NCBI GenBank assembly: GCA_016932575.1
Contig: JAFGCO010000039.1
Coordinates: 1-59,429 of the forward strand
Direction of reading: 5' to 3'
DNA from: a bacterium
GTDB taxonomy: Bacteria; Zhuqueibacterota; QNDG01; JAFGCO01
Length of the DNA: 59,429 bases
Numbering within the stretch: position 1 is the stretch's first letter; each line of letters opens with the position of its first letter. Under the pieces are notes generated by a model. It was not told the origin of the DNA, ran no database searches, and saw only the letters and a list, made by a program, of their open reading frames with translations. The translations under genes and the position numbers were made by a program. Below are positions 2,571-36,948 of the stretch, piece after piece.

Positions 2571-2975
2571 CTAAACGGCCCAATACTTCCTTAAAGCCAG
2601 ATCATTCAGAAAAACAATATCATATTGATCCATTGCTTCGAATCCTGCCCAGACATACTCACTGGATTCTTCGTTCAGCACAATTTCTCCCGTTACATGA
2701 CATTCAAAATAAAAGGTGATATAATGTTCCTGTAAAGATTCTGTGGGCAGATTATCCAAATAAAATAAAAAACGCTTCGAAATACATTTCAAAGCCGTCT
2801 CTTCCTCAATTTCTTTTTCGACTGTATCCTCAATTGTATCACCAAATTCAACTTTCCCGCCCGGCAAGCACCAGCTGCCGGAATCATGCGTACTGTGACT
2901 GCGTTTGAGCAGTAAAATTTCATTTTTTTGATTGCAGATAATGGCACGGACAACAGGGATTGGAAGTTGATACAT
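2571..2975 (-). CDS. Nudix hydrolase
   Basis: A 134-residue protein when started at the ATG at 2975, which has GGAG eight bases upstream; an ATG at 3041 would add 22 residues but lacks a ribosome binding site. The Nudix box is clear but slightly off consensus: GKVEFGD then KEIEEETAL, with Asp for the first Glu, Lys for Arg and Ala for the late Gly. The metal-binding Glu residues of REUxEE are kept. A YQLPIPVVRAII strand start and a GSWCLPGGK lead-in are typical of the family. It should hydrolyse a nucleoside diphosphate linked to another moiety; the substrate cannot be read from sequence. It stands alone between the surface protein and the ATPase gene. Confidence 0.85.
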   Translation of the reverse strand: MYQLPIPVVRAIICNQKNEILLLKRSHSTHDSGSWCLPGGKVEFGDTIEDTVEKEIEEETALKCISKRFLFYLDNLPTESLQEHYITFYFECHVTGEIVLNEESSEYVWAGFEAMDQYDIVFLNDLALRKYWAV

Positions 2976-3209
2976 CCAAAATTCTCCGGTTGATATACGG
3001 TTAAAAAAATTTTTAAACTTTAAATAATTTCGTCTGCACACATCGGGGAACTTGATTGTAATGACCGCATGGAATCATGAACAGCAGGTACACTTTATCA
3101 TTTTTTTAAAAACGTGTCAGGCAGCGGATTATCATCGTTCTTGATCCGGATGCTTTTATGGTCCTTTTATATCATGCATTGCCCATTTCATTGACCTCTC
3201 TCTGATGGC

Positions 3210-5831
3210 TTACTCATGACTGCCAGTGTTCAAAGTGAATACAATTTTATACTTTGCCGCTTTCAATATATCCACATACTTTCGAACAGAATTCCTGTCC
3301 TTCTCCTTATCCGCCTCGGAAAGTTGTGCATAGGCAATTAAACAATTATGCGTCTTTCTCGCATCGTTCCGCCTGCCTGGTGTCCAGCCGTTCCTCCGTT
3401 TTTGATCCATCCAGCCTTTGTGCTCGGCCTCGGCGAGCAATTCGATATTCTGTTCCATCAACGACTTTATTTCTTTTTCGGATTCTCTGACCGGATAAGA
3501 TTCCGGAACAACATAAAGACCGATCAGATCCAGAACCTGATGGATTCTTTCGGCAGCCGCCCGATTGTCTTCTTTGTAATCCTCAGACAAATTCTCATAA
3601 TCCACATCCATCTCCTGTTTCAGCCACTTTTCCTTTCTGCCAAGCTTCCGATAACAGGCATGCACAAACGGCGCCAGTATTTCTGCATGGGTTCTGAATT
3701 TTAAATCACGATTGATTATATCGACGAATTGATCATAGTCGACGTGCAATGAAATAATTTCCGGTGAAGGCAAGTCAGAACGACGAATAGCGACCTGTTC
3801 CGGTCGTTTCACCTGCGATATTATCTTATCAAGAGATCGGGATCCGTGCTTATATTTGTCGATCTCAATAAAAGCAGAAAGCATTCCATGGTCAATATTG
3901 AGATAATCAGTCTCTTTCAATCTCAGCATCGAGCGCATCAGCAATGCCCGTCTCACAGGAAAACAGATATCATTGTCATCCTCCTGCCATTTATTTATTT
4001 CAAGATCAAAATACTGTCTTCGATTCGGTCCCAGAACGTTCAGATAACCGCTCAAACGGCTGATAAAATCCGGTCCTTTTTTCAGCTGAAACTTTTGCCA
4101 TTGATCTGACTCTTCTTTCCGTGGCCCGAAGTTTTCCATGGTCAAACTCGTCCCACCTGCAAAGATGAAAATACATTTTCCAATCGGGTGGGTGATCTGA
4201 CCTTCCTGAAATTTGCCATCCTGCATGGGAGCGAGAAGATACTGCAGCCAGAAATATTCTTTTGAATCGAATTCATCCCAGAATACGATCGGAGTGGTGC
4301 CTTCCAGCACTTTATCACGAACCTGATGAAAAGCCCCGATTAAACAACCGGGATCATTGCTGAATTGAGAAAGGTTAAATTCCAGAATCGGGACATTTTT
4401 CCCAAAAATCCCTTCTGCAATCTGAACAATACCAAACGACTTACCGGAACCAGGAGGGCCAAACACAGCCATTGAAAGCGGCTTTTTGCCTTTGTCTTTT
4501 TTTTCATAGTCCAGAATGAGCTTGCTGACATTCCGCAAACTTTCAATCTCATTTCGGTCCACTGTGAGCAAATCCCCAAATCTGGCGTAAGGAATGTCGG
4601 CCAGGGCCTTCGGACCGATCAGTGCCACTCTTCTTCCCACACCGTAAAGAGGACGCGGATTCTTTTTGGCACCCTCTAAACACGCAGTCATTATCGTCCA
4701 GTTATTATGATTAGACTCTCCCGGATCTTCAGGCACCGGCAACGCAATGTTTGAATAGTGGTAATGCGGCTGATGAATATCCTGAACGACCCCGTTCATC
4801 GGGAAACCGGCAGGGCGTCCGTTTTGCTTGGTTTTCAGGTACCCGTGACCATTGATATGCATGGTTCGCATAGTGGACAATCCGGCCTGAATACCCTTAT
4901 TAAAATCCATTCTCTCACCGGATTGAATCAGACAGGCAACCATACCGGCCGTAAAACAGGTCATGTATCCCAATCCCATGCCGGAAAACTGGTCCAGCCA
5001 CTCCCCTTCCATGAAAGCCGGATCATAAAAAAGCCGGAACTTTTTATGGTTACCGTCTTTTTTTACAAGAAGGGCCCCTTCTGTACCAAGACGGACTATC
5101 AGGTATTTACTGGCAAGCAATTGATTGATGGCCGGATTAAAGAGAAGCTCACGGGTCAAATCCAGCGCGGTTCTTTCCCAGGATATCCCCCTGGATATTT
5201 TGACTTCTTCTTCCCGAATATCATCAATGGATACAATTGTAATTAAACGGTCTTTGTATTCAGTGCTGAGCAGTCTCCACAAATCCCCCTGACCAAGCGG
5301 TTTGGACATTTTCAGAACAATCCATTCAGGACTGTCCTTCTTTCTGTTTTGAAGCATACCGGGCCAGGCCTTAACCTCTGTGTTGTGCCTAAAACCCAGT
5401 CCGCTGTCATTAATAACCAAAATATCCGATGCCTGATTAGAGGCATTGCTGATATATGCCGAATAGGGGAAAAAGGGAGTATTTAAATGACCATAACCCA
5501 GTGTCCGGGCCATCCTCCATACAAAATGATCCGAACCGGCTTTCAAAGGGCATGGCTTCCAGAGTGCATACCTGTGTAAATTGGTATAGAGCTTCCCGAA
5601 TATGGTCTTATTGTATCCAAATTGAACCCGAAAAGGAACAGCCTTTTCATTGTGGTTCCTTTGGTGACTGATCACTTCGAGCATTTTATACAATAACCCG
5701 GCTCCGCCATTGGTCTTTTTAATATGGGTGCCGAGAGACTGGATGGAACTTGATGAGTTGCGCTCTCCCAGGTAAATATGATGATCGATTAACACATCAC
5801 CTGTGATCAAAATGACAGGCTTATTGTTCAT
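3210..5831 (-). CDS. Degenerate PfkB-like domain - AAA ATPase - RyR domain protein
   Basis: An 873-residue protein with GAGGGG ten bases before the ATG. Residues 1-350 resemble a PfkB/ribokinase fold: ITGDVLIDHH at the start, NGGAG at 41-45, VRLGTEGALLV at 246-256. The catalytic GAGD motif is GMGLG (284-288), so the kinase base Asp is absent and a ligand-sensing role is more likely. Residues 450-640 form a P-loop ATPase with Walker A GPPGSGKS (458-465) and Walker B PIVFWDEFD (514-522). Residues 797-860 match a RyR (ryanodine receptor repeat) domain: HKGWMDQKRRNGW, then GRRNDARKTHNCLIAYAQL. Prokaryotic RyR domains occur in predicted nucleotide-responsive conflict proteins. It is followed on the same strand by the AAA+ regulator and is divergent from the ubiquitin-like operon, so it may be its sensor. 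Confidence 0.8.
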   Translation of the reverse strand: MNNKPVILITGDVLIDHHIYLGERNSSSSIQSLGTHIKKTNGGAGLLYKMLEVISHQRNHNEKAVPFRVQFGYNKTIFGKLYTNLHRYALWKPCPLKAGSDHFVWRMARTLGYGHLNTPFFPYSAYISNASNQASDILVINDSGLGFRHNTEVKAWPGMLQNRKKDSPEWIVLKMSKPLGQGDLWRLLSTEYKDRLITIVSIDDIREEEVKISRGISWERTALDLTRELLFNPAINQLLASKYLIVRLGTEGALLVKKDGNHKKFRLFYDPAFMEGEWLDQFSGMGLGYMTCFTAGMVACLIQSGERMDFNKGIQAGLSTMRTMHINGHGYLKTKQNGRPAGFPMNGVVQDIHQPHYHYSNIALPVPEDPGESNHNNWTIMTACLEGAKKNPRPLYGVGRRVALIGPKALADIPYARFGDLLTVDRNEIESLRNVSKLILDYEKKDKGKKPLSMAVFGPPGSGKSFGIVQIAEGIFGKNVPILEFNLSQFSNDPGCLIGAFHQVRDKVLEGTTPIVFWDEFDSKEYFWLQYLLAPMQDGKFQEGQITHPIGKCIFIFAGGTSLTMENFGPRKEESDQWQKFQLKKGPDFISRLSGYLNVLGPNRRQYFDLEINKWQEDDNDICFPVRRALLMRSMLRLKETDYLNIDHGMLSAFIEIDKYKHGSRSLDKIISQVKRPEQVAIRRSDLPSPEIISLHVDYDQFVDIINRDLKFRTHAEILAPFVHACYRKLGRKEKWLKQEMDVDYENLSEDYKEDNRAAAERIHQVLDLIGLYVVPESYPVRESEKEIKSLMEQNIELLAEAEHKGWMDQKRRNGWTPGRRNDARKTHNCLIAYAQLSEADKEKDRNSVRKYVDILKAAKYKIVFTLNTGSHE

Positions 5832-5964: not shown

Positions 5965-7683
5965 TTATCTGCTGACAATATCTTCTATTTCCTGGATAAT
6001 GATCCCTTGCGTCACGATATATTGATCAGCAATATCTTCTTTCCAGTACTGAACCGCTTTCTTGATGCTCGTTTTGATCTGTTTACGAAAATTATGCAGC
6101 AAATCACTCAGTTTTCTAATTTGCGAATACACCCTTGGTTTCCGAAACAGAGCAGGATGCAGCAGCAATGTCTCGAGTTCAGAAAAATGCCTGTACAATC
6201 TTTCCTCAATTTCTTCCTTTATTTCTCTTTCATTCTTCTGCATGGTTAAGACCGGACTCAGGGTAATTTCTATAGCACGTAAAACTTCATCCATCCGTTT
6301 GAGCCGCCTTAGGCAATCGATGCGATGTAACCCGAATTCCTTTTCATCGGTCTCAACCGTCTGCAGGCCGAACATTTGTTTATCAAACATCAGGACCGCC
6401 CTCAAATGTGCAACTTTCAGATGTTCTTCACCAAATAAATTAACCAGTTGTGAAAGAATCATCTTAAGCTCCCGGGCATTCCCCGGCCAATGGTACTGCC
6501 GCAGCTCTTTTATAATATCCTCTGGCAATGCTGTATCATGTTTGGTATATCTTTTCCAGAAATGTCTGGCCAATCTCGCAATATCATCCGGATGGTGCCG
6601 AAGCGCCGGCGTGGGAATTAAAAAAGAGCGCAATCGATAATACAGGTCTTCCCTGAACTGTTCCTTTCGTACCATGGAAAACAGATCCCGGTTGGTTGCT
6701 GCAATGATTCTGACATCAACATCGATCGTTTCATTGGAACCGACCTTGCGTATGGCCCCTTCATCCAGAGCTCTTAAAATCTTGGCCTGATGTCTTAATG
6801 AAAGATCTCCGATCTCATCCAGAAAAAGACTGCCCTTATCAGCATACTCCCAGACACCTTTTCTATCAATAGCATCCGTATAGATTCCTTTTTTAGATCC
6901 AAACAGCTCCGTTTCCAGCAATTCGGTCGGAATGGCACTGCAGTTAATCGCTGCGAAGTGCTTGTTTTTACGGGGACTGTAATTGTGAATATTGCGTGCC
7001 ACGACTTCCTTGCCCGTGCCTGTTTCCCCCGTAATCAGGACCGGATCATCATTTTGAGAGGCCCGCAGGATGAGTCTGCGGATCAGCTTGATTTCACGCG
7101 ACTCCCCGACATAACTCTTTCTTAAATCCTCGGGTACTTCCATATCCGATATCAACTTGAGAAGTTCCTGATAAAATTCCGACCTTTCGAGGGGCCGGCA
7201 AAGTATCTGGTACTGATCAAATAATGTTGCCTTGGACGGTGACTTGAGGCTCCCCGCAGAATCCCAGATCGTGTCAAACAGAAGGGAATCTATGCCGATA
7301 AAATAAATATTTTCTCTGTCGTTGATTTTTTTCAGTGCAGACAAATCAGTATGTATCTGCCTGTTGGCCTCTTCTATGTTTTTAAGCAGACTCTGGCAGC
7401 CCCTTTTAAACTGACCAGACAATTTATAAGAGGCCCGAATCAATGGTATCTTCTCATGCTGAAGCATGTAATCAGCCAATCTTTTCCCCTGATGCTTATG
7501 ACCCCGGTCAATCACATTATCAAGCAGTAAATGGCTCACCTCGGATTTTTTTACGACAAATATTGCGGGTGCATTTTCTTTTTTAATATTTTCAAGCGTT
7601 GTCCCGGATTCCAAGTTGAATCGATATTGAAAAAATCGATCCGAAGCGTGAAATCCTGAAATTTTCAATGATTGAATTTCCAT
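5965..7683 (-). CDS. Sigma54-activator-type AAA+ protein without a recognisable DNA-binding helix
   Basis: A 572-residue protein with AAGGTGG just before the start. Residues 1-190 are an unrecognised N-terminal domain, not a receiver domain. The central AAA+ domain (about 190-420) is that of bacterial enhancer-binding proteins: YVGES, Walker A GETGTGKE, NCSAIP, LFLDEIGDL, RIIAATNRDL, FREDLYYRL and HWPGNARELK. The sigma54-contact loop, normally GAFTGA, reads GIYTDA. The C-terminal 150 residues are helical and I see no Fis-type helix-turn-helix, which is unusual. Its gene is divergent from the ubiquitin-like operon with a 378-bp shared upstream region, so it is the likely local regulator. RtcR-like activators have the same general layout (sensor domain plus AAA+), but I cannot confirm a CARF fold here. 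Confidence 0.8.
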   Translation of the reverse strand: MEIQSLKISGFHASDRFFQYRFNLESGTTLENIKKENAPAIFVVKKSEVSHLLLDNVIDRGHKHQGKRLADYMLQHEKIPLIRASYKLSGQFKRGCQSLLKNIEEANRQIHTDLSALKKINDRENIYFIGIDSLLFDTIWDSAGSLKSPSKATLFDQYQILCRPLERSEFYQELLKLISDMEVPEDLRKSYVGESREIKLIRRLILRASQNDDPVLITGETGTGKEVVARNIHNYSPRKNKHFAAINCSAIPTELLETELFGSKKGIYTDAIDRKGVWEYADKGSLFLDEIGDLSLRHQAKILRALDEGAIRKVGSNETIDVDVRIIAATNRDLFSMVRKEQFREDLYYRLRSFLIPTPALRHHPDDIARLARHFWKRYTKHDTALPEDIIKELRQYHWPGNARELKMILSQLVNLFGEEHLKVAHLRAVLMFDKQMFGLQTVETDEKEFGLHRIDCLRRLKRMDEVLRAIEITLSPVLTMQKNEREIKEEIEERLYRHFSELETLLLHPALFRKPRVYSQIRKLSDLLHNFRKQIKTSIKKAVQYWKEDIADQYIVTQGIIIQEIEDIVSR

Positions 7684-20977: not shown

Positions 20978-22072
20978 TTATGATGATTCTATTCGTTTGC
21001 TTAATTGATCTATCTTTGATTTTAATTCATCAATAACATAATCCCTTGATGTCTTATATTGTGCCGGTTGGTTTTTTAATAAAGATTGAAATTCCTCATC
21101 AAATTTTTCGATTTGATCCTGTATGATGGGTGCATATCTCGTAAAAATAGTCTGTTGATACCCAATGCCCGGCACATTGCTGACTGACTGAGCAAGGAAC
21201 CAGTTGCCGACGATTGTCAGATTCTCACCTCTTGACATTTTCTCATTGATAACAATCTCAATCTGTTCTGGTGGCATAGATACTACAAATTCCAATAAGG
21301 ATTTTAAACGTACATATTTGGCCTGTTCATCAAATTGTTGATACTCTATGGAAAGATCAATCATAAGGCTGCACCCTTTTTTTCGTGCATGTTTCTCCAT
21401 ACTTATCCGTTCCCTCTTCAGCTCCTTGGCGCGAAATTGAAAACCTTTAAAATCCTCTGGACTGTAACGCTTCTGCCACGATTCATCAATGAACGCTTTA
21501 TCAGGGATATGAAATGTGCTCAGCGCACCCTTTTGACGCACATGACCAAAACCGATTTTTCCCAATGATAAAACATTGTCTGAATATTCCACCATCATCT
21601 TCGTACGGTCCTCATGAAGTTCAGCACTTTCATACAAAGGTCTTGGTTTTTTTCGAGCATTCCTGATTAATTTATCGAAAGTATTGAATGACAGCTGCTC
21701 CTTCATACGATTTTCATTATTAGACCATTGAATGGCCTGTAGATCCTGCAGCATCTGTCCTGGTATTTGGCCAAGCGTTATGGGAAGTATCGGAATTTTA
21801 AGAGCCATTGCATATCCAATTTCCTGATGTACCCACCCTCTTTTACTCGAACGCTTTGTAATTACAGGGACAAAAACATGAGAGTGAGCAATAAAATTTT
21901 TAATCTGATCCGGAAACCCTTGTCCTCCGGCAATATTCTCATCGAATAGAGGCTGAAGTTTGTTTTCTTTTAAAATATTGACAATCTTCTTAACCAGCTT
22001 GAAATCCTTGCTGGAATGACTGATGAAAACCCTGTATTGATTCTTATGTTTTTTCTTCAATACCCTCTTCAT
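20978..22072 (-). CDS. TIR domain protein with unknown C-terminal domain
   Basis: A 364-residue protein. The TIR domain covers residues 11-140: YRVFISHSSKDF (13-24), a DENIAGG loop (45-51), and GWVHQEIGYAM where Glu84 is the likely NADase catalytic residue. Residues 150-364 are an unrecognised, strand- and helix-mixed domain that may sense a trigger or bring copies together. TIR domains of this type in bacteria cleave NAD or make cyclic ADP-ribose signals in phage defence. It shares a strand with the phosphatase downstream and lies beside a RAYT repeat cassette. Confidence 0.85.
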   Translation of the reverse strand: MKRVLKKKHKNQYRVFISHSSKDFKLVKKIVNILKENKLQPLFDENIAGGQGFPDQIKNFIAHSHVFVPVITKRSSKRGWVHQEIGYAMALKIPILPITLGQIPGQMLQDLQAIQWSNNENRMKEQLSFNTFDKLIRNARKKPRPLYESAELHEDRTKMMVEYSDNVLSLGKIGFGHVRQKGALSTFHIPDKAFIDESWQKRYSPEDFKGFQFRAKELKRERISMEKHARKKGCSLMIDLSIEYQQFDEQAKYVRLKSLLEFVVSMPPEQIEIVINEKMSRGENLTIVGNWFLAQSVSNVPGIGYQQTIFTRYAPIIQDQIEKFDEEFQSLLKNQPAQYKTSRDYVIDELKSKIDQLSKRIESS

Positions 22073-25397: not shown

Positions 25398-27566
25398 TTA
25401 ACGCATCAGAATCATTTTCCTGCTCAAATTCTCACAGGTTCCATCTTGATATTGAATCTTAAGAGAATATGTATAAATTCCGCTTGCGACTTTGGTCCCC
25501 AGATCATTGCAACCTTCCCAGAAGATTCTGTAATTTCCGGCGGATTGACGCATATCCAGCAGATGACGAACCATTTTACCGTGGTTGTTAAACACTTTGA
25601 TGTTTACCTGACCAGATTTCGAAAGCATGTACTCGATGGCTGTCCCCGGATTGAAGGGATTGGGATAATTCTGCCTGAGCATAAATTGACGGGGAGAACG
25701 GTCACTGCCCAAATCCTCATGAATGTCTGTGGCCTGTGTCACTGTCACTGTCATCGAAGTGGTATCCGAAAGTCCGCCCGCATCAGTGGCAGTGAACAAC
25801 ACCCTGACTGGGGATGCAGTGGTAAAACCGGGTGTACAGCTGAAAACAGCTTCTTTTGTTTTGTTATCGATCATGATAAACAGATCTTCCTCATCATGTG
25901 TTGTCACTTGATGCAATTTTTTCTGAATCAGCCGATTTCGGATATATCCGGATTCATCCTTCGACTCTGCGTCCCTGTTTCGCATGCTGCCACAACTCTT
26001 ACTGGGCAACGGGGCGTATACGGCATTGAAAACAAGGGAAGATTTCTTGTTCAGTCTGGTATTTGACTGAACAGAGGCATTCCATTGTATATACATATCC
26101 GGATGATCACTGTCTTCCACATACGGACTCAGGGACAGATTGTAGGTTTCATCATTTTTAAATTCAATTTCAGGCATAGCCGACAATACAGGTGCCTGGT
26201 TCACATGACTCTGTAAAATATTTTCTATTAAAGCATTCCCTTTCTCATATATAATTGTCGGCGTAATTAATTGAGGCTCTGGTTTAATCATGTTGATTTC
26301 GGCCATGAAATTTTCCCACTGATGTGGAAATTGTTCCTCAACATATCGGAAAAACGCTGCGTAACGCATGGTTTTAACGGCCGCATCCCATACACACGGA
26401 TTAATTGCCCGCAGGAGGTCCGGATAGTCGGATATGCGGCGGCTGTATCCCTGAAGATAATCCACTCGAAATGCATCCATATCTGCCAAAAGAGAAACCA
26501 AACCATCCGCATAAAGTGAATTCGTTGTATATTGCTCAAGATAGCTTCTTCTTCCGGCATCCGTTGGAATTTGAATCGCATCGAGAACCCAATATATTTC
26601 ATAAAAATCATGATAGGTTTCATATTCATGAAGTGCTTCGAGTATTTGATCAATCAGCCAGTCACGATAGTCCAAACCGGCATTTTGCTGAGAAGCAGAA
26701 TCCCAGGCATCATCCAGAGCCTGCATAATCGAATCAATGGCAGCATCTGCATCATAGTCCGACCGATCATATTCATATTGCCAGCAGAAAAAATAAGGTG
26801 TTTCAGTCAATATTAATGAATCATTTCTTACAAAAAATTGTATATCCCTTGTATAATCCGAAATAACATAGGACCTGTGAATGACTCCCAGGTCATTGAT
26901 GATGTCTGTCATATGATTGTCAAATGCAACGTACCCCGCCTGATTGTTCAACAGGATCGGCGCTTTTTCACCCGGACCCAGTATGTACTCGCCATCTTCT
27001 TTGGGAAGATCTGTATTAAAATCATATAAAATCAGCATATCCATCTGAAAATGCCTCAATCCCAGAAGTGTGTTCTCCAGCTGGGGATGATAATTCACGA
27101 TCCAGTCACTCTTTTCAACCTGCTCTTCCGTCTTGGCTGTGTAAAATGCATCGTCGACGTTTTCATCTAATGCATGCCCAAAAAGTGAGAATATGGAATA
27201 GTAATCTGAAGCCACGTATTCAGCAACCGGCAGAAGCATCCAGTCATAAATGGGCGATGCCAGCTTTTGATTATTCAGTGTGATTTCAAGTCGTTCTCCA
27301 TCATGATCATCCTGATGATAATGAAGAACCACACTCTGAATGTTCAGTCCGGATGCGGGCCGGGCTGTCTGATCAAAAGTAATGCCGCCTACGTCTGTTA
27401 CGGCGGCAGACGATTGTCTGATAAATTCCATGTCATTGGAATGCATCAGCCTCGCTGCATTCAGATATTCAAGACTTTTCATTGCCAAAGACTGTTCAGC
27501 AACTGACGTGGCACATAAGGCGGCAAGCAGAATGAAAATAATTTTTATTCTGAGTATGGATTTCAT
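25398..27566 (-). CDS. Secreted protein with C-terminal NYPNPFNP sorting/FlgD-like domain
   Basis: A 722-residue protein with a signal peptide at 1-23 (hydrophobic core IIFILLAALCATSVA). The large N-terminal part (30-430) is unrecognised but homologous to the protein at 34518-35834: shared IYDW, NYH...ENTLLGLR..QMD, ISDY and CVWDAAVKTMRYAAFFRY. A cadherin/Ig-like segment with VLFTATDAGG follows, then a C-terminal domain with RQNYPNPFNPGTAIEY and GSGIYTYSL-type strands, typical of T9SS or FlgD-like sorting domains. It should be exported. It follows a TIR-TPR gene on the same strand by 59 bp, the same pairing as in the second copy. Confidence 0.8.
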   Translation of the reverse strand: MKSILRIKIIFILLAALCATSVAEQSLAMKSLEYLNAARLMHSNDMEFIRQSSAAVTDVGGITFDQTARPASGLNIQSVVLHYHQDDHDGERLEITLNNQKLASPIYDWMLLPVAEYVASDYYSIFSLFGHALDENVDDAFYTAKTEEQVEKSDWIVNYHPQLENTLLGLRHFQMDMLILYDFNTDLPKEDGEYILGPGEKAPILLNNQAGYVAFDNHMTDIINDLGVIHRSYVISDYTRDIQFFVRNDSLILTETPYFFCWQYEYDRSDYDADAAIDSIMQALDDAWDSASQQNAGLDYRDWLIDQILEALHEYETYHDFYEIYWVLDAIQIPTDAGRRSYLEQYTTNSLYADGLVSLLADMDAFRVDYLQGYSRRISDYPDLLRAINPCVWDAAVKTMRYAAFFRYVEEQFPHQWENFMAEINMIKPEPQLITPTIIYEKGNALIENILQSHVNQAPVLSAMPEIEFKNDETYNLSLSPYVEDSDHPDMYIQWNASVQSNTRLNKKSSLVFNAVYAPLPSKSCGSMRNRDAESKDESGYIRNRLIQKKLHQVTTHDEEDLFIMIDNKTKEAVFSCTPGFTTASPVRVLFTATDAGGLSDTTSMTVTVTQATDIHEDLGSDRSPRQFMLRQNYPNPFNPGTAIEYMLSKSGQVNIKVFNNHGKMVRHLLDMRQSAGNYRIFWEGCNDLGTKVASGIYTYSLKIQYQDGTCENLSRKMILMR

Positions 27567-27625: not shown

Positions 27626-29182
27626 TCAAACGGGAAACTGATTGTAATAATCATCAAAAGCTTCAGATCGTTCAAAATCATACCGGGCTCTTTCAAGTTC
27701 ATCCAATAAATAATTGGCAAATCCTGTAAAGTAGAAATCCTTTTTTGTTTGTGGCAATGATAAACCGGCATCTGATATCACCCGTTTGCACAGTTCCTTC
27801 ATCTTTTCATGGTTTTCAAGCTGCCGGAAAATTCTGGCCTGTATAATCAGAGTTTCGCGTGTGACGGTTTCAGGATCGGTATTGAGTTTTTCAAAAATTT
27901 GTATTGCCTGATCAAATTCCCGGAATCGAAACAGCTGTTTCCCTTTGAAAGCCAATAGCTCCGGATTTGACTCATAACAACCTTTGGAGATCAGCCGTTG
28001 GAATGCCTCGTCCTTTTTATCCAGATAAAGCAGGCAATAATAGTAATAGATCTCTGCATCTTCGTCCATGGTATCACGCATATTATCCAATTGATTAAAT
28101 TTTTGCTCAGCTTCGCGGTACTGTTCGTCCAAAAATAGAATGACCGCCTGAAGCTTTAAGACCGTGTACCAGTCATGCCCGGGAATTATTTGAAGTGTAT
28201 ATTGCAGTATTTCAGTTTTCAGGGTAACCGGCACAGGATTATCCGCCTTAATCAGGATAGTTGCATAATTGATTTTCTCATCTGTATTGTCTGTTTTACA
28301 CTGTTCCAATGCCATTCTGTAATGATCAATGGCCTTTTCATAATCGCCCCGATCCGAATAGACACCGCCAAGACCGCCATGCACATATCGATGGCCTCTT
28401 CTTATGCGGCCGGCCTGTTTAAATGTTTGTTCTGCCTGGTCCCAATCACCGAGTATTTGTTCACAAACACCTTTGACAATATAAGGATAGAATAATCTGT
28501 TTTTCCCTCCGGCGCTTTCGGGAATTTTATAGGCACAGGAATCCAAAAAATAGCGAATAAGAAAATAAGCCTCCTCCCAGGCCTCTTGCTGAAACTTCGT
28601 ATTAAAGAGGCTGAGAATGATCATCAGCTCAACATGCGCTGCATTTGAATGCGTAAATTGAAAAGACTCTTCTTTAAACTTTTTCCAGAAAGGCATCCGC
28701 TCATGCGTCTCAATAATGGGTTTATATTTTTTATGAATATTTCTTTCATACACCTTCTCACAAATACGGCCAATTGCTTCTTCATATCCTTTTTCATCGA
28801 TAAAATTCATATGAAGATATATTTTATTTTCAAAAGACTTAAAAGGGCCCTCAAGACATCTCGGACATTTATTTTTAATCATGAGCGGGATGACATTTTT
28901 TGAAGACTGACCGGCGTTTTTCAGAATATATTCGACTTCCAGCCTTGTAAATCGTCCGCTATCCTTATCGACACTATCCCGACTGATCAGGGGAATAAAA
29001 TATTTGGAATTATCGATCTGCTTAAATAAATAGTCCGGTAAATTTTCGCCTAACTCAATCTGTTCTATATCATTTGAATAATCCCAGAATGTAATTCCCT
29101 GGTATTGTAAGCTGGCCATCAGCTGCCTGACGTATTTTAAATCCTTTGAAGAAAAACTGATAAAAACATCATATTTTTTCAT
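27626..29182 (-). CDS. TIR-TPR protein, copy 1
   Basis: A 518-residue protein. The TIR domain (residues 3-150) has YDVFISFSSKDL (4-15) and GRFTRLEVEYIL, where Glu82 or Glu84 is the likely catalytic residue. Residues 180-500 are tetratricopeptide repeats, for example GDYEKAIDHYRMALEQC. It ends in a block (FANYLLDELERARYDFERSE) closely matched in the TIR-TPR protein at 32966-34486, so the two arose by duplication. The TPR part probably binds a trigger or partner and controls TIR NAD cleavage. The next gene on the strand encodes an exported protein, paralogous to the one beside copy 2. Confidence 0.87.
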   Translation of the reverse strand: MKKYDVFISFSSKDLKYVRQLMASLQYQGITFWDYSNDIEQIELGENLPDYLFKQIDNSKYFIPLISRDSVDKDSGRFTRLEVEYILKNAGQSSKNVIPLMIKNKCPRCLEGPFKSFENKIYLHMNFIDEKGYEEAIGRICEKVYERNIHKKYKPIIETHERMPFWKKFKEESFQFTHSNAAHVELMIILSLFNTKFQQEAWEEAYFLIRYFLDSCAYKIPESAGGKNRLFYPYIVKGVCEQILGDWDQAEQTFKQAGRIRRGHRYVHGGLGGVYSDRGDYEKAIDHYRMALEQCKTDNTDEKINYATILIKADNPVPVTLKTEILQYTLQIIPGHDWYTVLKLQAVILFLDEQYREAEQKFNQLDNMRDTMDEDAEIYYYYCLLYLDKKDEAFQRLISKGCYESNPELLAFKGKQLFRFREFDQAIQIFEKLNTDPETVTRETLIIQARIFRQLENHEKMKELCKRVISDAGLSLPQTKKDFYFTGFANYLLDELERARYDFERSEAFDDYYNQFPV

Positions 29183-29275: not shown

Positions 29276-29809
29276 TTATTCTCCGGATTTTATCACAATG
29301 GGAACATCTGCCGGCAGAATCCGCCAAAGCTCTTCAATTTCCCGATTCGTCACCGCAATACAGCCGCTTGTCCAGTCAAACCATCTATGTAGCCTGCCCA
29401 CAAATCCGAATCCGTTCGGAAGACCATGGATAGTGATATCGCCGCCGGGTGAATACCCGTTCATTATAGCCTGTTTTGTGTCCTCTTCATTCGGATAAGA
29501 AATATGCAGGGACCGGTGGCAGACACTGCCTGCATTTCTGTAGTCAATGATATATTCCCCCTCCGGTGTTTTCTGATCTCCCTGCCTTCGTTTGGCACCT
29601 CTGGGCACCTTACCCAGAGCGATCCTGTAGACTCTAACTGTTTCGCCTTGAGAAAAGACAGCCATTCGACGTTTCAATTTATTGACAACAACACGGTCCC
29701 CCCTTGCATCCGGAGGCAACTCTTTATAGAATCCATGAGCGTAAATCAACAATCCCAATAAAGTCACTGCAGGAAAACACAAAAGCAAAATGGACCTTCG
29801 TTGCATCAT
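29276..29809 (-). CDS. L,D-transpeptidase (YkuD/ErfK family)
   Basis: A 177-residue protein from the ATG at 29809; a TTG two codons earlier is less likely. A membrane anchor or uncleaved signal spans residues 5-24. The YkuD domain shows LGKVPRGAKRRQGDQKTPEG (substrate lid), ITIHGLPN and the catalytic TSGCIAVTN with the active Cys. It should form 3-3 crosslinks in peptidoglycan or attach proteins to it, in the periplasm. It is the only plain cell-wall gene in the TIR island and may be a bystander. Confidence 0.88.
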   Translation of the reverse strand: MMQRRSILLLCFPAVTLLGLLIYAHGFYKELPPDARGDRVVVNKLKRRMAVFSQGETVRVYRIALGKVPRGAKRRQGDQKTPEGEYIIDYRNAGSVCHRSLHISYPNEEDTKQAIMNGYSPGGDITIHGLPNGFGFVGRLHRWFDWTSGCIAVTNREIEELWRILPADVPIVIKSGE

Positions 29810-30067
29810 GAACAAATACCCAATGGTTATTTGTTAATCAGGACATGGAAATAATAATAAAAAAATCTACAAATATTTTATTTTTAACGGGACAGGTATT
29901 GGATTAATTTTATTATTCGTTTCAGGATTCTATATTGAAACATTTTATATAGAAAAAATGAATCCTCCTTTTTATCCATCCTGGCATTGAGCTTCATAAC
30001 AATTATAGTTCATTCTTTAACCTTGTAAGATGTAATTCAAATAACTCTCAATATCAAATTCAATGTA

Positions 30068-32737
30068 TTATCTGCCCACCTTTTTCTCTTTTATTTTCTC
30101 CAAAATTTTGATCCAGTTATTGATCATAACTCGATCGTATTCTTTTACCATGTCATCCAACTTATCCCACTCCACAAGAAAAGGATTTGTTTTTTTGAGA
30201 TCATCTCTTTTCTCCCCATATTTCCATCCTTCAGCCAACCTTTCAATCCACCATCGAGCATGCTCACATTCTGCAAGTTCTTCTTTCTTATTCTCAAATT
30301 CATCCCAATCTATATCCAGCTTCCTCTCGTCTTTAATAACACTCCCGACACGTTTTAGTGTCGGTTCAATAAACCGCACCTGTTCTGCATTGGATATTTT
30401 TAAATCTTCAAGTTCTTTTGTTTTGTCAGCGATTAACTTTTCCCAAGGTTTCATTGTCGAATCGCTGGAAAGGCCATTATCATATTTATACTTTCGATAA
30501 CATTCATGTACATGTTCCTGAACCTCATCGATTATTTCATCAGATATGACCTGATTTTGATACTGATTGACAAATGCCCAGACAAGAATTTCTTTCTCGG
30601 GTATGACAACAATATGTTGATGCCCCATCCAATCCGGATCAGATAAAATACCCGTTACGGCACGACCGCTGTTTTCGATCAGTCCAACCTGTACTCCCAT
30701 TGCCAAGGCAATTCGATATTCCAGATCGGAAAAACGGCCTCCATTGATACCCAAAACATTAACACGATCAAAATTAACATCATTAAGAACCAGATCGATC
30801 CAGTATTGAATCATATCGAGGATTGAAAACGTTTTTTGATTAATACATATGGGAATATAATTCTGATCTTTCAGCTTTTCATCAATTCCTTCAGGATAAT
30901 AGCCCAGCAGATAGACGGGTTCTTTCTTTTTTAACCGATTATTATTGATTGCTCCGACAATTGCTCCAACCTGGCCTGGAATTCCCTGTCTTGTCCCACC
31001 TGAAATAATAATACCCTGATAATTTTCCAATGCATTGTTTAGCAATTTACGATAAGCAGCTGCATTTTCCAAAAATTCAGCGCCACCGGCTACAATAAGT
31101 ACCGTGGATCTCTTCAGATATTCCGGATCTTTCTTTAAGAACTCCAAATCGCCCAATGCCTCTGAAGTATGAAGGTTCTTTTTTATTTCAGCACGAATTT
31201 GATAATTATCTTTGGCCTCAATATGGTTATATTTTCCCAAGAGCAATAGAAATCGAATGACCTGATAATCAATTTCTTCAATATCTTCATTGTTAATTCG
31301 GTCAAGGGAAGCCAATTGATCATCAAAAATTTCAATGGGGAATATCGGATTTTCATTATTACAGAAATCAATGGCTTTTGCATAGGCATTCAATGATTGA
31401 TCAATATCACCGATAATCAAAAACAGTTTCCCGATGGTCCAGTAACAATCCGGCATCTCTAATTGATATTGTATATGCTCCTGACATTTTTCAATTGCAT
31501 CCCTGACTGCCGGTTTTAAAATACTGCCCTGTTTTTTATCATGAGCAATTTTGCATTCAAGGTAATTGGTTAAATAATAAGGATTTGCAGGTACGAGATT
31601 ATAAGCAAGATCAAAACATTTCAAAGCCATTTCAATATCATTTTTCCGAATATAACACTCTCCCAGCAAATATAGCGCCCTTGCCCTTCTGTGTTTTTGC
31701 AACTCATTCTCTTCCTTATCTTTATCTTTTATTTTATAATCATACGCGCTGATTCTCTTAATCTTTTTTTCAGGCCGGGCAAGTTTTTCTAAAAGCTTTA
31801 TTCCTTCATTAAATTTTTCTTCTGTTCCATCAATACCCAGCATGCATTGAACGTAACCGAGCAGCATATTGATTTTTTGTGATTCGCCCTTATAATCATT
31901 CAAAAGCTTTTCAACCTCATGCCAATCTCTTTTAATACAATGCAATTTTGTCAACTCAAATGCATATTTCATTGCCGACCTTTTCCACTTCTTAAAATCA
32001 GGGCCGTTACCACGACATTTATCCTTTGCATTCTGGTACAATGTTTCAAACCTTGACCGAGTTTTCTCGAATCTTTCCTTATTTAAGACTGCCGCATAAT
32101 TGGAAGCAAACGCATCCAGGGTTTGTGCAAAACTTAAAAACGACTTATCCGCTTCCTCTAAGATCGCTGCAAGACGATAGGATTCCCTCTCCCAGTAAGC
32201 TGGGACTTTAATTGCCGCTTTATATATCCTGTCGTGACTGATATCTGCCCAGGCATGCTGAAGGAACGTCTTGATCTGGACTTCGGCCTTTTTTTTAATC
32301 AAATCGTTATTAAATTTTACACCCATAATTTTTCTTTTTGGCGATACGATCAGATGAACCGAAACATATCCAAATTCTGAAGTCTTCATCACATCTCGTT
32401 TATCAATGCAATTTTTCTCATCAATTTGAAATTCTCTCCTGATTCTTTGACATATCAAATCCACTTCACTCTGAAAATGTACAATAATCCGTCCACCGCA
32501 CAGGTCTGTAATTTCTTCTTCTGGCTTCTCATATTTTTGTTTTCTCATGACTTTCTCTGCAAATCCGTCAACACTCTTGATCCTGGTCTGAACAATGCCC
32601 AGCGGTGCATATTCATCTTTAATTTTATTCAGAATGCGTTCAAGCTTTTTTCTGAACTCTTCATAATGTCCCCTAACCTTCAAATAATCATCAATATGCT
32701 TTTGAAGATCCCCTTTATTAATTTCAATTTCACTCAT
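30068..32737 (-). CDS. RelA/SpoT synthetase-like - TPR - SLOG - RyR protein
   Basis: An 889-residue protein with GGAGGGTG before the ATG. Residues 1-200 resemble a (p)ppGpp synthetase: KSVDGFAEKVMRK, DLCGGRIIV (78-86), EFGYVSVH (121-128) and AEVQIKTFLQHAW (151-163), keeping the catalytic Asp and Glu. Residues 230-530 are TPR-like helices. Residues 544-725 match a SLOG (Rossmann, nucleotide-binding) domain: VLIVAGGAEF, IIISGGTRQGIPG and GGRFSDLEYRIALAMG. Residues 823-882 are a RyR domain: CEHARWWIERLAEGWKYG, then KKTNPFLVEW. It likely senses a nucleotide and makes or answers with another alarm nucleotide. The same RyR module ends the protein at 3210-5831. Confidence 0.85.
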   Translation of the reverse strand: MSEIEINKGDLQKHIDDYLKVRGHYEEFRKKLERILNKIKDEYAPLGIVQTRIKSVDGFAEKVMRKQKYEKPEEEITDLCGGRIIVHFQSEVDLICQRIRREFQIDEKNCIDKRDVMKTSEFGYVSVHLIVSPKRKIMGVKFNNDLIKKKAEVQIKTFLQHAWADISHDRIYKAAIKVPAYWERESYRLAAILEEADKSFLSFAQTLDAFASNYAAVLNKERFEKTRSRFETLYQNAKDKCRGNGPDFKKWKRSAMKYAFELTKLHCIKRDWHEVEKLLNDYKGESQKINMLLGYVQCMLGIDGTEEKFNEGIKLLEKLARPEKKIKRISAYDYKIKDKDKEENELQKHRRARALYLLGECYIRKNDIEMALKCFDLAYNLVPANPYYLTNYLECKIAHDKKQGSILKPAVRDAIEKCQEHIQYQLEMPDCYWTIGKLFLIIGDIDQSLNAYAKAIDFCNNENPIFPIEIFDDQLASLDRINNEDIEEIDYQVIRFLLLLGKYNHIEAKDNYQIRAEIKKNLHTSEALGDLEFLKKDPEYLKRSTVLIVAGGAEFLENAAAYRKLLNNALENYQGIIISGGTRQGIPGQVGAIVGAINNNRLKKKEPVYLLGYYPEGIDEKLKDQNYIPICINQKTFSILDMIQYWIDLVLNDVNFDRVNVLGINGGRFSDLEYRIALAMGVQVGLIENSGRAVTGILSDPDWMGHQHIVVIPEKEILVWAFVNQYQNQVISDEIIDEVQEHVHECYRKYKYDNGLSSDSTMKPWEKLIADKTKELEDLKISNAEQVRFIEPTLKRVGSVIKDERKLDIDWDEFENKKEELAECEHARWWIERLAEGWKYGEKRDDLKKTNPFLVEWDKLDDMVKEYDRVMINNWIKILEKIKEKKVGR

Positions 32738-32965: not shown

Positions 32966-34486
32966 TTAATCAAGCTGATTATAATATTGATCACAAAAAT
33001 CTTCAGACCTTTCATAATCATACTTTGCACGTTCATGATTCTCCAATAAAAAATTTGCATATCCATCATAAAAAAAATCTTCTTTTGTTTTCGGGATTGG
33101 AAAATAATCCCGGTTTAATACTTCTTCACATACTCTTCTCATTTTTAATTGATCATAATATTTCATGATTCTTGCATATTCGATTGTAAATTGCCGGGAG
33201 GGGGGCCGATAATGTAATAATTTCTCTTCATAGACCTTTATCGCTTTCTGATCCATACCCAGATAAAAATAAAAAAGAGCCAGATAATGATCCAACAGAG
33301 ATTCAGTAAAATGATCTGATTCTTCCTCCAGGATTGCCAGAGCATCTTCCTGATTTTCCATCTCTTTCAAAACCAGATGGATATAAATCACAGTTGTTAC
33401 ATTATATGTTTTCTGTTGACGCATTGCTGTTAAAAAATTCAGCGCTTTATCATAATCCTTTTTTTTATAAAAAGCGATGCTTTTCATATTCAAATAATTG
33501 ATCCTTTCAGATTCAGACAGTGCTGAAACATCAAAAGCATCCAGGAATGAAAAATCTGTTATCTCCTGACCGGACTGAATCAAAGCGCCAAGAATATTGA
33601 ACCATATTTCAAGATTGTGCTCCGGAGGACACATCTTTAAAGCCTGATTGAACGCTTTTAGCGCTTCTTCATACCGTTTCTGCCGGAAATAAACCTGACC
33701 CAGTCCGCCATAACTGTTTTCATCGCATAAAGGATGATGGACGGCATCAAGAAAAGCCTGCTCTGCTTCAGCAAACTCTCCCAAATGAAGATGACACACT
33801 CCCTTCACAATGAGAGGATAATAGGGCTTGAGTCCGGGTATATTATATCCGCAGTACAACAGGAAATAGGTAATATGTTTCTCTGCTGCAATATAATCAT
33901 ATTCTGCATAATGATGTGAAAAATCATGAATAATCAGCATCAGCTCCTGGTATACGGCATTGGGAAGATTCCACCCTTTGATTTCTTCATCAAACCGGCC
34001 GGAAAAGGGCAATCGGGAATGGGCTATAAAAAGAGGGATATAGGGTACGCTTAAGTGTTTTGCAATTTTCGCAACAGCCTCTTCAAAGCACTTCGGATTT
34101 TCTGTATCCACTTCCAGATACATCGTATCCCGAAGAGATTCATAGCCGTCTGCCCATTTACCAGGCTTATGATTAAGCAGAAGCAGCGGCAAAATCCGTC
34201 CCTGCCTCTGCCAACCCTTGGAAAGCACATACTCCACTTCGAGAGTTGTATACCGGCCGATTTCAGGATCCATACTGTATTTGCTGAGAACAGTGATAAA
34301 AAAATCGGATTGATCAATCTGCTCCCTCAGTACCGTGGGTATATGGCCCCCCAAAGGAATCTCTTCACCTCTGTGCGAATAATCCCAGATATCGATATTC
34401 TGGCTTTTCAGCCGATAGAATATTTTTCGCACATACGGTTTATCCTTCGAAGAGAAACTGATAAATACTTTCGGAGATGAACTCAT
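32966..34486 (-). CDS. TIR-TPR protein, copy 2
   Basis: A 506-residue protein. The TIR domain (5-150) has KVFISFSSKDK (6-16), IDIWDYSHRG and GRYTTLEVEYVL with Glu83 or Glu85 as the catalytic candidate. TPR repeats fill residues 190-490 (for example KRYEEALKAFNQALKMC). It ends with DFFYDGYANFLLENHERAKY, nearly the same as copy 1 at 27626-29182. It lies 31 bp downstream of a secreted-protein gene, so gene order is reversed relative to copy 1. A cytoplasmic TIR effector and an exported partner appear to have been duplicated as a unit. Confidence 0.87.
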   Translation of the reverse strand: MSSSPKVFISFSSKDKPYVRKIFYRLKSQNIDIWDYSHRGEEIPLGGHIPTVLREQIDQSDFFITVLSKYSMDPEIGRYTTLEVEYVLSKGWQRQGRILPLLLLNHKPGKWADGYESLRDTMYLEVDTENPKCFEEAVAKIAKHLSVPYIPLFIAHSRLPFSGRFDEEIKGWNLPNAVYQELMLIIHDFSHHYAEYDYIAAEKHITYFLLYCGYNIPGLKPYYPLIVKGVCHLHLGEFAEAEQAFLDAVHHPLCDENSYGGLGQVYFRQKRYEEALKAFNQALKMCPPEHNLEIWFNILGALIQSGQEITDFSFLDAFDVSALSESERINYLNMKSIAFYKKKDYDKALNFLTAMRQQKTYNVTTVIYIHLVLKEMENQEDALAILEEESDHFTESLLDHYLALFYFYLGMDQKAIKVYEEKLLHYRPPSRQFTIEYARIMKYYDQLKMRRVCEEVLNRDYFPIPKTKEDFFYDGYANFLLENHERAKYDYERSEDFCDQYYNQLD

Positions 34487-34517: not shown

Positions 34518-35834
34518 TTACGGCCTCAATACCGTGGGTGTTTCTGCGACAGGTTTGACATCGATATCATTGATTTGTTCTAAAAACGCCTGCCACTCAT
34601 TGGGATAGTGAGATTTACAGTACCGGAAGAATGCCGCATACCGCATCGTATTCACAGAAGCATCCCATACAGGGGGATTCATGTCTCTCAACACATCAGG
34701 CTCGTCTGAAAGACGCTTGCTGTACTCTTCCAGGAATACGGGACGATACATTTCCATTTCATATCGTAATTCGATGAGCATCTGCCGCAATGAAGACGTA
34801 TAATATTGATCCAGAAAATTCCGTCTGGCCTCATCACCTGATTGTTCAATGGCCATATTCACAGTCGTACCGGCAGCGTAAAGCGCATAGCTTCCCTGGT
34901 ACCGCTTCAGCTCCGCAAGCAGCTTATCGATATACCATTTTCTCTCATCAAAGTATCCCTCAGATTGCGAATTTATTTTTTCAATTTCTTCATCAATATC
35001 CGCAACAACCTTTTGATTAAATTGCGACTGTTCATCTTGACTCATCGTATCAAAAACATATTTCCAGCAATAATAAAAGGGATATCCTGTGATCTGCAGT
35101 GTATCATTTTTGATAAAAAATCGAATATTCTGCTGATAATCCGAAATGAGATAGGATCGAAACTGCACCTGTAATTCAGCTTCCACGTTTTTCAGTTTAA
35201 GAACAACACGACTCATTGCATCAAGGTTTGCAAACACATTCGGTTGAGATTCCCCTTTTCCCAAGATATAAACATTGTTTTTTTTCGGCAAATCCGCACA
35301 ATCATCATACATAAGCATCAAATCCATTTGCATCAGCCGCAATCCCAATAATGTATTCTCAAAAGCGGAATGATAATTCATAATATGACCGCCCTCATCC
35401 ATGATTCTTTTTTCCTCGATTTTATCCTTCAGACTGCCAAAATAGGTGAAACATGCATAGTAAGGGCTTTCTGCATACATGGCGATGGGAATCAGCTGCC
35501 AATCATAAATCTTCGTATCAATCCGTTGACCGTTGATAACAACCACCAATCGATTTCCGTCTTGATTTTGACTATTGTAGGAACATCGGACTAAATGTAC
35601 GGACAGACTGTCTGGCGGCAAAGCCTCCAGTTCAAAAGCGATCCCCCCCACACCGCTGAGTGAGCTTTGACTGTAAACGCTTCCACGATGCATATCTGTG
35701 GGGCTTTGCAAAGGAGGGGCCTCCATTTGTGGCATGGTCATTTTACCGAGAGTGATTTGTGCAGAAAGTTGAAACGACATGCACAAAACCAACATCAGGC
35801 TCAGCACACCGCGGATCCAATTTCTTTTTCTCAT
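34518..35834 (-). CDS. Secreted protein paired with TIR-TPR copy 2
   Basis: A 438-residue protein from the ATG at 35834, chosen because GGGAGG lies five bases upstream. A signal peptide covers residues 1-27 (MRKRNWIRG, then a hydrophobic run ending LSAQ). The rest is unrecognised but is a clear paralogue of the first 430 residues of the protein at 25398-27566: VGGIAFE, IYDWQLIPIA, NYHSAFENTLLGLRLMQMD, ISDYQQNIRFF and VWDASVNTMRYAAFFRY. It lacks the Ig-like and C-terminal sorting domains of its paralogue, so it probably stays in the periplasm. Function unknown. Confidence 0.75.
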   Translation of the reverse strand: MRKRNWIRGVLSLMLVLCMSFQLSAQITLGKMTMPQMEAPPLQSPTDMHRGSVYSQSSLSGVGGIAFELEALPPDSLSVHLVRCSYNSQNQDGNRLVVVINGQRIDTKIYDWQLIPIAMYAESPYYACFTYFGSLKDKIEEKRIMDEGGHIMNYHSAFENTLLGLRLMQMDLMLMYDDCADLPKKNNVYILGKGESQPNVFANLDAMSRVVLKLKNVEAELQVQFRSYLISDYQQNIRFFIKNDTLQITGYPFYYCWKYVFDTMSQDEQSQFNQKVVADIDEEIEKINSQSEGYFDERKWYIDKLLAELKRYQGSYALYAAGTTVNMAIEQSGDEARRNFLDQYYTSSLRQMLIELRYEMEMYRPVFLEEYSKRLSDEPDVLRDMNPPVWDASVNTMRYAAFFRYCKSHYPNEWQAFLEQINDIDVKPVAETPTVLRP

Positions 35835-36168
35835 TTTATCCTCCCTCATATTTAAACCTAATGCATTCAAAACACCCGGAACCACTTCCGAAAAAGCAGC
35901 AGAGATCCGGCTTGATTTATCTTTGAATTTTCTGAATACCGTATTTACTGTTTTTGTAAAACATTATTGACATACACAAACAACTTTTCAAATGAATCCT
36001 GTGGTGAGGCAGAATGATAGGGGATATTCTGCACATTGCGTAAACCGTAAGGAAGTTGATCCACTGAAAGAACTTCGTAAATGTATAAACCTGTCCGTCT
36101 TTACGATCTGAAAGACAGTTCTATTATTTTTGTTTATTTATTTCATCGAATCTTGCAATTTTGTCTGT

Positions 36169-36948
36169 TTAATCCTGGATTTTTCTTCTGTCCATGGATT
36201 GAATGGAGTATTGCTCACTGATTTTCCGGGCGATTCTCTCGACGAGTAATGGGATATTCCCCCTCTCCTCTTCTGTGGCGTCCTTCCAAACAGCTTCTGA
36301 GATCACCTGCAGCACATTTCTGGGCTCATGCTCTGTGCCCTTATCATCAAAATACCGGTATTTCAGTGCTTCATCTGCCAGTGTTTCACTCACCAGACGT
36401 GCCGGATTAAACTGTCCCAGGCTGACAGCCCGGGTATAGCATAACTGAAATCCCACGCGCAACCGCTGTTGTGTTAAGTCAGAGGAACGCCTCTCTTTGG
36501 ATTTATTTCTCCGATCCTGGTCTTTTGGCATATTCTTCTTTTTTTCATACGGCAGGAATGTCTTACCGAACACGGCCATGACCTTTTCAAATCCGGTTTT
36601 CATGCAAGATCTGAAATCAATGGTCTGATAGGCTTCCATACCGTCAACAAAGCGGGACAGATCTGTATCATCCAGAATCAATGGTAAAACTGCGCCTTTC
36701 GGTTTTAAAGTCTGAAAACGAACAAATTCCTTAATCACCCATTTGGAGTCTGCTGAATGGCTTGAAACCACGACAATTAAAGATTCAGCCTTTTCCAGAG
36801 CCCTGTCAATTTCATCTCTGTACTGGTGGCTGCCTTTAATATCATCCGTGCTGCACCAGGTTTTAACTCCATGATACTCCAGAAGCGCGACCAGCAGATT
36901 TACAAAATACCGATCATCACTTGAATGTGAAATAAAAACAGGCTGCAT
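36169..36948 (-). CDS. TIR domain protein with basic linker and C-terminal domain
   Basis: A 259-residue protein. The TIR domain (1-135) starts with PVFISHSSDDRYF and has SADSKWVIKEFVRF, with Trp70 and Glu74 at the NADase positions. A highly charged linker (KKKNMPKDQDRRNKSKERR, 136-154) leads to an 85-residue domain with VGFQLCYTRAVSLG that I do not recognise. It is the upstream end of the leftward TIR island. The 334-bp gap between it and the next gene (35835-36168) holds nothing I recognise. Confidence 0.83.
   Translation of the reverse strand: MQPVFISHSSDDRYFVNLLVALLEYHGVKTWCSTDDIKGSHQYRDEIDRALEKAESLIVVVSSHSADSKWVIKEFVRFQTLKPKGAVLPLILDDTDLSRFVDGMEAYQTIDFRSCMKTGFEKVMAVFGKTFLPYEKKKNMPKDQDRRNKSKERRSSDLTQQRLRVGFQLCYTRAVSLGQFNPARLVSETLADEALKYRYFDDKGTEHEPRNVLQVISEAVWKDATEEERGNIPLLVERIARKISEQYSIQSMDRRKIQD

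Follow-up and report, generated by a model that had tools for sequence, protein, structure and literature searches.

We identified a protein of 889 residues in which a RelQ-like alarmone synthetase is joined through a TPR-like solenoid to a SLOG domain and a tandem pair of RyR repeats, encoded among TIR genes in the 59,429-nucleotide stretch of bacterial DNA analysed here (the window). Its domain content marks the protein as a RelQ-like synthetase, its fold as a SLOG/LSDAT protein and its sequence as an RyR protein. We propose, with confidence that stands about midway, that it is a ligand-gated alarmone synthetase and the effector of a TIR-based alarm pathway, and that it may convert one alarm nucleotide into another. 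The preliminary description of this DNA had raised the idea of an alarm nucleotide made in reply to a TIR product; the idea is strengthened by the present analysis and is unproven.

The open reading frame starts at an ATG that is immediately preceded by GGAGG as ribosome-binding site (Table 1). Pfam matches above the cut-off were obtained for RelA_SpoT (residues 51–175, E 2e-16) and RyR (residues 813–881, E 7.8e-13), together with a TPR_2 match (residues 352–385, E 2.8e-8), and the full-length AlphaFold2 (AF2) model was confident (pLDDT 85.7, pTM 0.86). The RelA/SpoT, TPR and RyR parts are secure from sequence alone, and the SLOG part needed family and fold evidence. Promoter and terminator scans added no information (39 promoter-like sites observed versus 37.4 expected).

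Table 1 Features of the synthetase protein and of its surroundings in the window
Feature	Position	Strand	Basis
889-aa RelA/SpoT-TPR-SLOG-RyR(x2) protein	30068..32737	(-)	ORF; full-length homologues
RelQ-like alarmone synthetase, ~residues 20-215; R52, K54, D78, Y124, E152	32093..32680	(-)	Pfam, RelQ profile match, invariance
TPR-like alpha-solenoid, ~residues 246-530	31148..32002	(-)	TPR_2 match; all-helical in AF2 model
SLOG, LSDAT/TRPM MHR1/2 type, ~residues 544-728	30554..31108	(-)	LSDAT_prok in 24/29; model Z 15-16 to TRPM2
Degenerate first RyR repeat, ~residues 733-800; H744, N783	30338..30541	(-)	Alignments; profile match
Canonical RyR repeat, ~residues 812-886; H826, W829, D868	30080..30304	(-)	Pfam 7.8e-13; 29/29 invariant
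TIR-TPR protein, encoded by the adjacent upstream gene at a distance of 229 bp	32966..34486	(-)	Pfam
TIR-TPR protein, downstream of the 889-aa gene	27626..29182	(-)	Pfam
TIR protein	36169..36948	(-)	TIR_2 2.1e-20; weak ThsB_TIR match
TIR protein	20978..22072	(-)	Weak ThsB_TIR match
TIR-phosphofructokinase fusion; relatives adjoin homologues in L044, L050	22947..25316	(-)	
MutT-like Nudix hydrolase, family of the Nudix genes adjoining homologues elsewhere	2571..3041	(-)	
AAA ATPase ending in a tandem RyR; partner family of the system	3210..5831	(-)	
Sigma-54-type AAA protein, recurring neighbour in five loci	5965..7683	(-)	

A single-sequence search of genome contigs with the 889-aa protein gave no match; a seed alignment, built on six full-length relatives present in whole genomes, then recovered the family when 84,980 species genomes were scanned. 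This survey of the architecture, which the preliminary description had suggested, yielded at least 28 full-length homologues besides the window protein, and one shorter relative. Family counts out of 29 refer to the window protein and 28 full-length homologues. The homologues align end to end at 27–41% identity, and the RelA/SpoT-TPR-SLOG-RyR order, proposed at first for the window protein only, is the same in all full-length members; all four domain types were named correctly, and the RyR, taken as single, is a tandem pair. The shorter relative (L047 9854-12028, 724 aa), from an Accumulibacter bin, has synthetase, solenoid and SLOG and stops before the RyR, either as a natural variant or through a frameshift.

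The family extends across about ten bacterial phyla and includes one archaeon. Represented are KSB1, Cloacimonadota, Nitrospirota, Chloroflexota, Hydrogenedentota, Planctomycetota, Verrucomicrobiota, Kiritimatiellota, Acidobacteriota, a bin labelled 'Deltaproteobacteria' and a methanomicrobial archaeon; most of these genomes are metagenome bins, and individual taxon labels need caution. Phyla are intermixed with good support in the family tree, where planctomycete L050 groups with verrucomicrobial L035 and archaeal L031 with L043 from Thermodesulfovibrionia. This conflict with taxonomy is as expected for horizontally moving, mobile defence genes. The viral contigs and plasmids searched held stand-alone synthetase domains only and no full-length member. 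Text searches of the literature returned no description of this combination of domains; the 2015 paper defining SLOG/LSDAT (NAR gkv1267) was outside their scope, and we therefore claim no priority for the bare architecture.

PF04607 (RelA_SpoT) matches the synthetase domain with 60.7 bits versus a curated cut-off of 27, and is matched in 29/29 members. Residues R52, K54, K62, D78, R83, G123, Y124, E152, Q154, T157 and H168 are identical in all 29. The ATP- and Mg-binding residues and the guanine-stacking Tyr (R52, K54, D78, Y124, E152) are thus intact, and in a comparison of the profile with RelQ structures they align with RelQ catalytic positions; by a count along the RelQ sequence, we take the RelQ counterparts to be R46/K48, D72, Y116 and E139. 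The catalytic motifs, which had looked intact at first reading, are so in every member, and the loss of a catalytic Asp or Glu, which the preliminary description would have counted against the idea, was looked for in all 29 without one being lost. Profile matches to solved structures were strongest for RelQ (5e-21 to 1e-17), followed by RelP (4e-12), CapRel (1e-6) and FaRel2 (3e-4), and RelQ structures were among the Foldseek matches of the full-length model. No HD hydrolase or TGS domain was detected in the 889-aa protein. From its invariant residues and its closest solved relatives, the domain is best read as a working pyrophosphokinase of the (p)ppGpp type.

The host genome (G000) gave no second RelA_SpoT or HD_4 match, so a canonical long Rel was not found in this 94.5%-complete assembly, in which a gap is possible; in contrast, a RelA_SpoT match is present in 28 of 29 related genomes. 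The notion that the protein stands in for a missing housekeeping Rel was rejected as a general explanation, since three genomes (G003, G011, G012) have both.

LSDAT_prok (PF18171) falls under its curated cut-off on the 889-aa protein alone (E 0.19; 11.4 bits versus 25.4), and across the family it is matched at E ≤ 0.01 in 24/29, with a best E of 7.6e-10. The AlphaFold2 model of residues 536–735 (pLDDT 90.7) matches TRPM MHR1/2 in Foldseek with E down to 5e-8 and aligns with TRPM2 and TRPM4 at VIA-align Z scores of 15–16 over ~195 of 200 residues. Smaller SLOG proteins, e.g. TM1055, have Z scores similar to those of the TRPM matches, and the alarmone-binding nucleosidase PpnN, at Z ~14, scores slightly under TRPM2 in the same list. 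The SLOG motifs VAGGA(E), GGTxxGIPG and LGxxGGxIxxxEY are present, with GG551-552, GGT580-582 and G585 in 29/29 and E673 in 28/29. As modelled, the domain has the TRPM MHR1/2 fold with its GG, GGTxxG and GGxxxxxE motifs. Human TRPM2 MHR1/2 binds ADPR and 8-Br-cADPR (PMC6759353), and SIR2-SLOG ThsA effectors are activated by 2'cADPR and 3'cADPR (PMC11204291).

PF02026 (RyR) is matched in 29/29, at 48.9 bits versus a curated cut-off of 27.4, and the profile of the degenerate first repeat matches second-repeat regions of animal RyR. RyDEP, a phage RyR-domain enzyme, binds and cleaves the TIR products 2'cADPR and 3'cADPR (PMC13232231). Its His/Asp catalytic dyad and adenine-stacking Trp (H75, W78, D117) correspond to H826, W829 and D868, which are kept in all 29 members; the offsets of 3, 25 and 42 from the dyad His lead exactly to W829, N851 and D868, the same spacing as in RyDEP. 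The phosphate-contact His of RyDEP (H100) is an Asn here (N851), and position 851 across the 29 is H (n = 12), S (n = 12), N (n = 3) or Q (n = 2). Other phage RyR homologues have been tested, and most bound the signals without cleavage (PMC13232231). The RyR part of the 889-aa protein is predicted to bind a (c)ADPR-type signal; cleavage is not claimed, and we do not file the protein as RyDEP.

Six of the seven TIR_2 matches in the 4.4-Mb host genome lie inside the 59-kb window, in agreement with the TIR island reported at first; one of these six, the TIR-phosphofructokinase (TIR-PFK) fusion at 22947, is under the curated cut-off. The window holds a second such fusion at 47006-49141(-), and relatives stand next to a RelA-SLOG-RyR homologue at L044 3507-5720 and L050 4400-6667. 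The fusions are ~40% identical and keep the PFK motif PKTMDND, and the TIR part of the L050 member has no Pfam call; a TIR domain fused to a sugar-phosphate kinase fold has no role that we are aware of. Two related-looking proteins without a specific Pfam family (25398-27566(-) and 34518-35885(-)) lie beside TIR genes; their N-terminal halves are alike by eye, and the former ends in a FlgD_ig/secretion-type tail. An L,D-transpeptidase (YkuD) gene at 29276-29815(-), with a TIR-TPR gene on one side and the RelA-SLOG-RyR gene on the other, is probably unrelated.

Conservation of the neighbourhood was assessed by running HMMs derived from neighbouring genes on the 29 family loci and on 49 control loci of stand-alone small synthetases from the same scan. 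With these models, whose seeds came from family loci and give some bias toward the family (Pfam confirms the identities on representatives), a Nudix gene was found at ≤100 bp in 16/29 loci versus 0/49 controls (p 4e-9), and a TIR gene at ≤10 kb, rarely directly adjacent, in 14/29 versus 1/49 (p ~9e-7). RCK (TrkA_N) channel-like genes, many with C-terminal RyR, occur in 11/29 loci versus 1/49 controls, and AAA proteins with C-terminal RyR in 9/29 versus 0/49. Within the host phylum, the 1.5-kb flanks of 8/8 other homologues contain a Nudix gene, and RyR partners are present in 6/9 genomes with the protein versus 6/73 (p 2e-4). The proposal that the alarm nucleotide answers a TIR product gains from this linkage and from the binding of ADPR or cADPR by SLOG and RyR families elsewhere; it is held back by the roughly half of loci near which no TIR gene was seen, although many contigs end nearby, and by the Asn at position 851.

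The Nudix neighbours are MutT-like, and one further locus (L046 9428-12517, 1029 aa) encodes a RelA-TPR-SLOG-RyR protein that carries a Nudix domain at its N-terminus as a natural fusion. MutT-type Nudix enzymes can cut (p)ppGpp (PMC7584652), an activity of MutT, NudG and NahA, so that either the alarmone or ADP-ribose may serve as substrate of the Nudix enzymes here. In the window, the Nudix gene stands beside the genes for the AAA-RyR protein and the sigma-54-type AAA protein, at a distance of 24 kb from the synthetase gene, which counts against the proposed mechanism; L183 likewise has a member of this Nudix family next to an AAA-RyR gene, with no synthetase beside it.

The AAA-RyR protein of the window has 873 aa, with an N-terminal half without assignment, an AAA ATPase middle and the RyR at its C-terminus, and its family also occurs beside homologues in L024, L025, L039, L049 and L064. 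Channel-like proteins (L023 8624-10495, L042 3982-5787, L043 8600-10414, L046 6405-8291, L064 2701-4461) consist of an N-terminal membrane segment, a TrkA_N/RCK region and, at the C-terminus, a tandem RyR that has the cADPR-type His/Trp pocket residues; these RCK-RyR proteins are candidate bacterial cADPR-gated ion channels. On one strand of L043 (7025-15768) stand, in a compact cluster, genes for a single RyR protein, a SLATT_1 two-TM protein, the RCK channel-RyR protein, an inositol-phosphatase-like protein, the RelA-TPR-SLOG-RyR protein, a Nudix and a TIR protein.

In the proposed mechanism, the TIR proteins of the island would turn NAD+ into a signal of the ADP-ribose or cyclic ADP-ribose type on infection or stress. 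The SLOG clamshell would bind this signal, and the TPR solenoid would relay the change to the RelQ-like domain or dock it; that SLOG reads a TIR product is suggested by family, fold and context, and binding would presumably switch the synthetase on rather than off. The RelQ-like domain would then pyrophosphorylate GDP/GTP, or another nucleotide, at its 3'-OH with ATP as donor, and the resulting (p)ppGpp-type alarmone would stop growth; (p)ppGpp itself is the probable product, judged by the kinship of the domain. The tandem RyR would bind signals of this class too; it may be a further sensor or a slow hydrolase that sets the timing of the response, and more probably senses the signal than destroys it. 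The Nudix enzyme would reset the system by cutting the alarmone or linear ADP-ribose.

The strongest rival, which we regard as unlikely, is a toxSAS-type toxin whose RelA/SpoT domain would pyrophosphorylate tRNA 3' ends or adenosine nucleotides, with the Nudix enzyme as antidote and with SLOG and RyR only timing its firing. A Nudix gene adjoins or overlaps in most loci and is fused in L046, an arrangement frequent among antidote genes; (p)ppGpp is a known substrate of MutT-like enzymes (PMC7584652), and PADLOC gave a weak match to the candidate PDC-S33 over the RelA domain. However, the domain is much nearer RelQ than CapRel or FaRel2, and the occurrence of the same Nudix family next to AAA-RyR genes without a synthetase, in the window and in L183, points to RyR/ADPR chemistry too.

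The ligand may also be a different one: SLOG would read (p)ppGpp or another cellular nucleotide as feedback, and the TIR genes would be unrelated island neighbours. We consider this distinctly improbable. The match of the SLOG model to PpnN and the loci without a TIR gene nearby, about half of them, speak for such a reading, but PpnN scores slightly below TRPM2, TIR genes are strongly enriched relative to the controls (p 9e-7) and RyR, as second sensor, has cADPR-type pocket residues. Those residues include the H826/D868 dyad of the glycosidase RyDEP, kept in 29/29, which together with the Nudix partner gene and the RyR domains that channels and AAA proteins carry in these loci would fit a protein that ends TIR signalling, its RyR and the Nudix enzyme degrading cADPR to ADPR and on to AMP and ribose phosphate. 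Such signal removal is very unlikely in our view, as it leaves the invariant synthetase unexplained and as most tested phage RyR homologues bound their ligands and did not cleave them (PMC13232231).

If the ligand-gated synthetase is the correct reading, the passage from a TIR signal to a ppGpp-type synthetase would unite, within a single molecule, two of the bacterial alarm nucleotide families that are known best. To our knowledge, the endpoints of TIR pathways are NAD+ depletion, pores and other direct killers. The RyR domain, for which cADPR chemistry was described in 2026 in phage proteins only, would thereby gain a role in cells, and the long-standing issue of cADPR reading by animal ryanodine receptors and TRPM2 via the same modules would gain a bacterial setting. 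More tentatively, and at somewhat less than even confidence, we picture a circuit in which TIR-made cADPR signals are read by SLOG and RyR and turned into a second alarmone within one polypeptide; with RyR also on RCK channels and AAA ATPases, and with a Nudix reset, it would amount to a parts kit holding the regulatory modules of TRPM2 and of ryanodine receptors.

Among known systems, RelQ/SAS1 (YjbM, PDB 5dec, 2be3) shares the synthetase fold and catalytic residues, but RelQ is a stand-alone protein of ~210 aa, whereas the 889-aa protein adds solenoid, SLOG and RyR. CapRel and other toxSAS also use a RelA/SpoT-family synthetase, and do so in defence; their sequence match is weaker, and no CapRel-type C-terminal sensor was recognised in the 889-aa protein. 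Thoeris (TIR ThsB with SIR2-SLOG ThsA) is similar in its nearby TIR genes and in an effector whose C-terminal SLOG, in the family described here, possibly reads (c)ADPR. It differs in that an alarmone synthetase replaces SIR2, in that the SLOG is of the LSDAT/TRPM type, and in that RyR and the Nudix, RCK channel and AAA-RyR partners are additional features of the family described here; Pfam found neither a SIR2 nor a macro domain in the 889-aa protein, the ThsA effector types being SIR2-SLOG and TM-macro, and despite the similar logic we therefore do not file it as Thoeris. RyDEP shares the His/Trp/Asp pocket residues of the RyR domain at the same spacing, but is a phage counter-defence protein, whereas the 889-aa protein is cellular and multidomain and has Asn in place of the phosphate-contact His. 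TRPM2, with its MHR1/2 SLOG and NUDT9-H Nudix, resembles the family in SLOG fold and Nudix partner, the latter fused in L046; its output is a channel, whereas that of the 889-aa protein is a predicted synthetase, although RCK-channel genes share the same loci.
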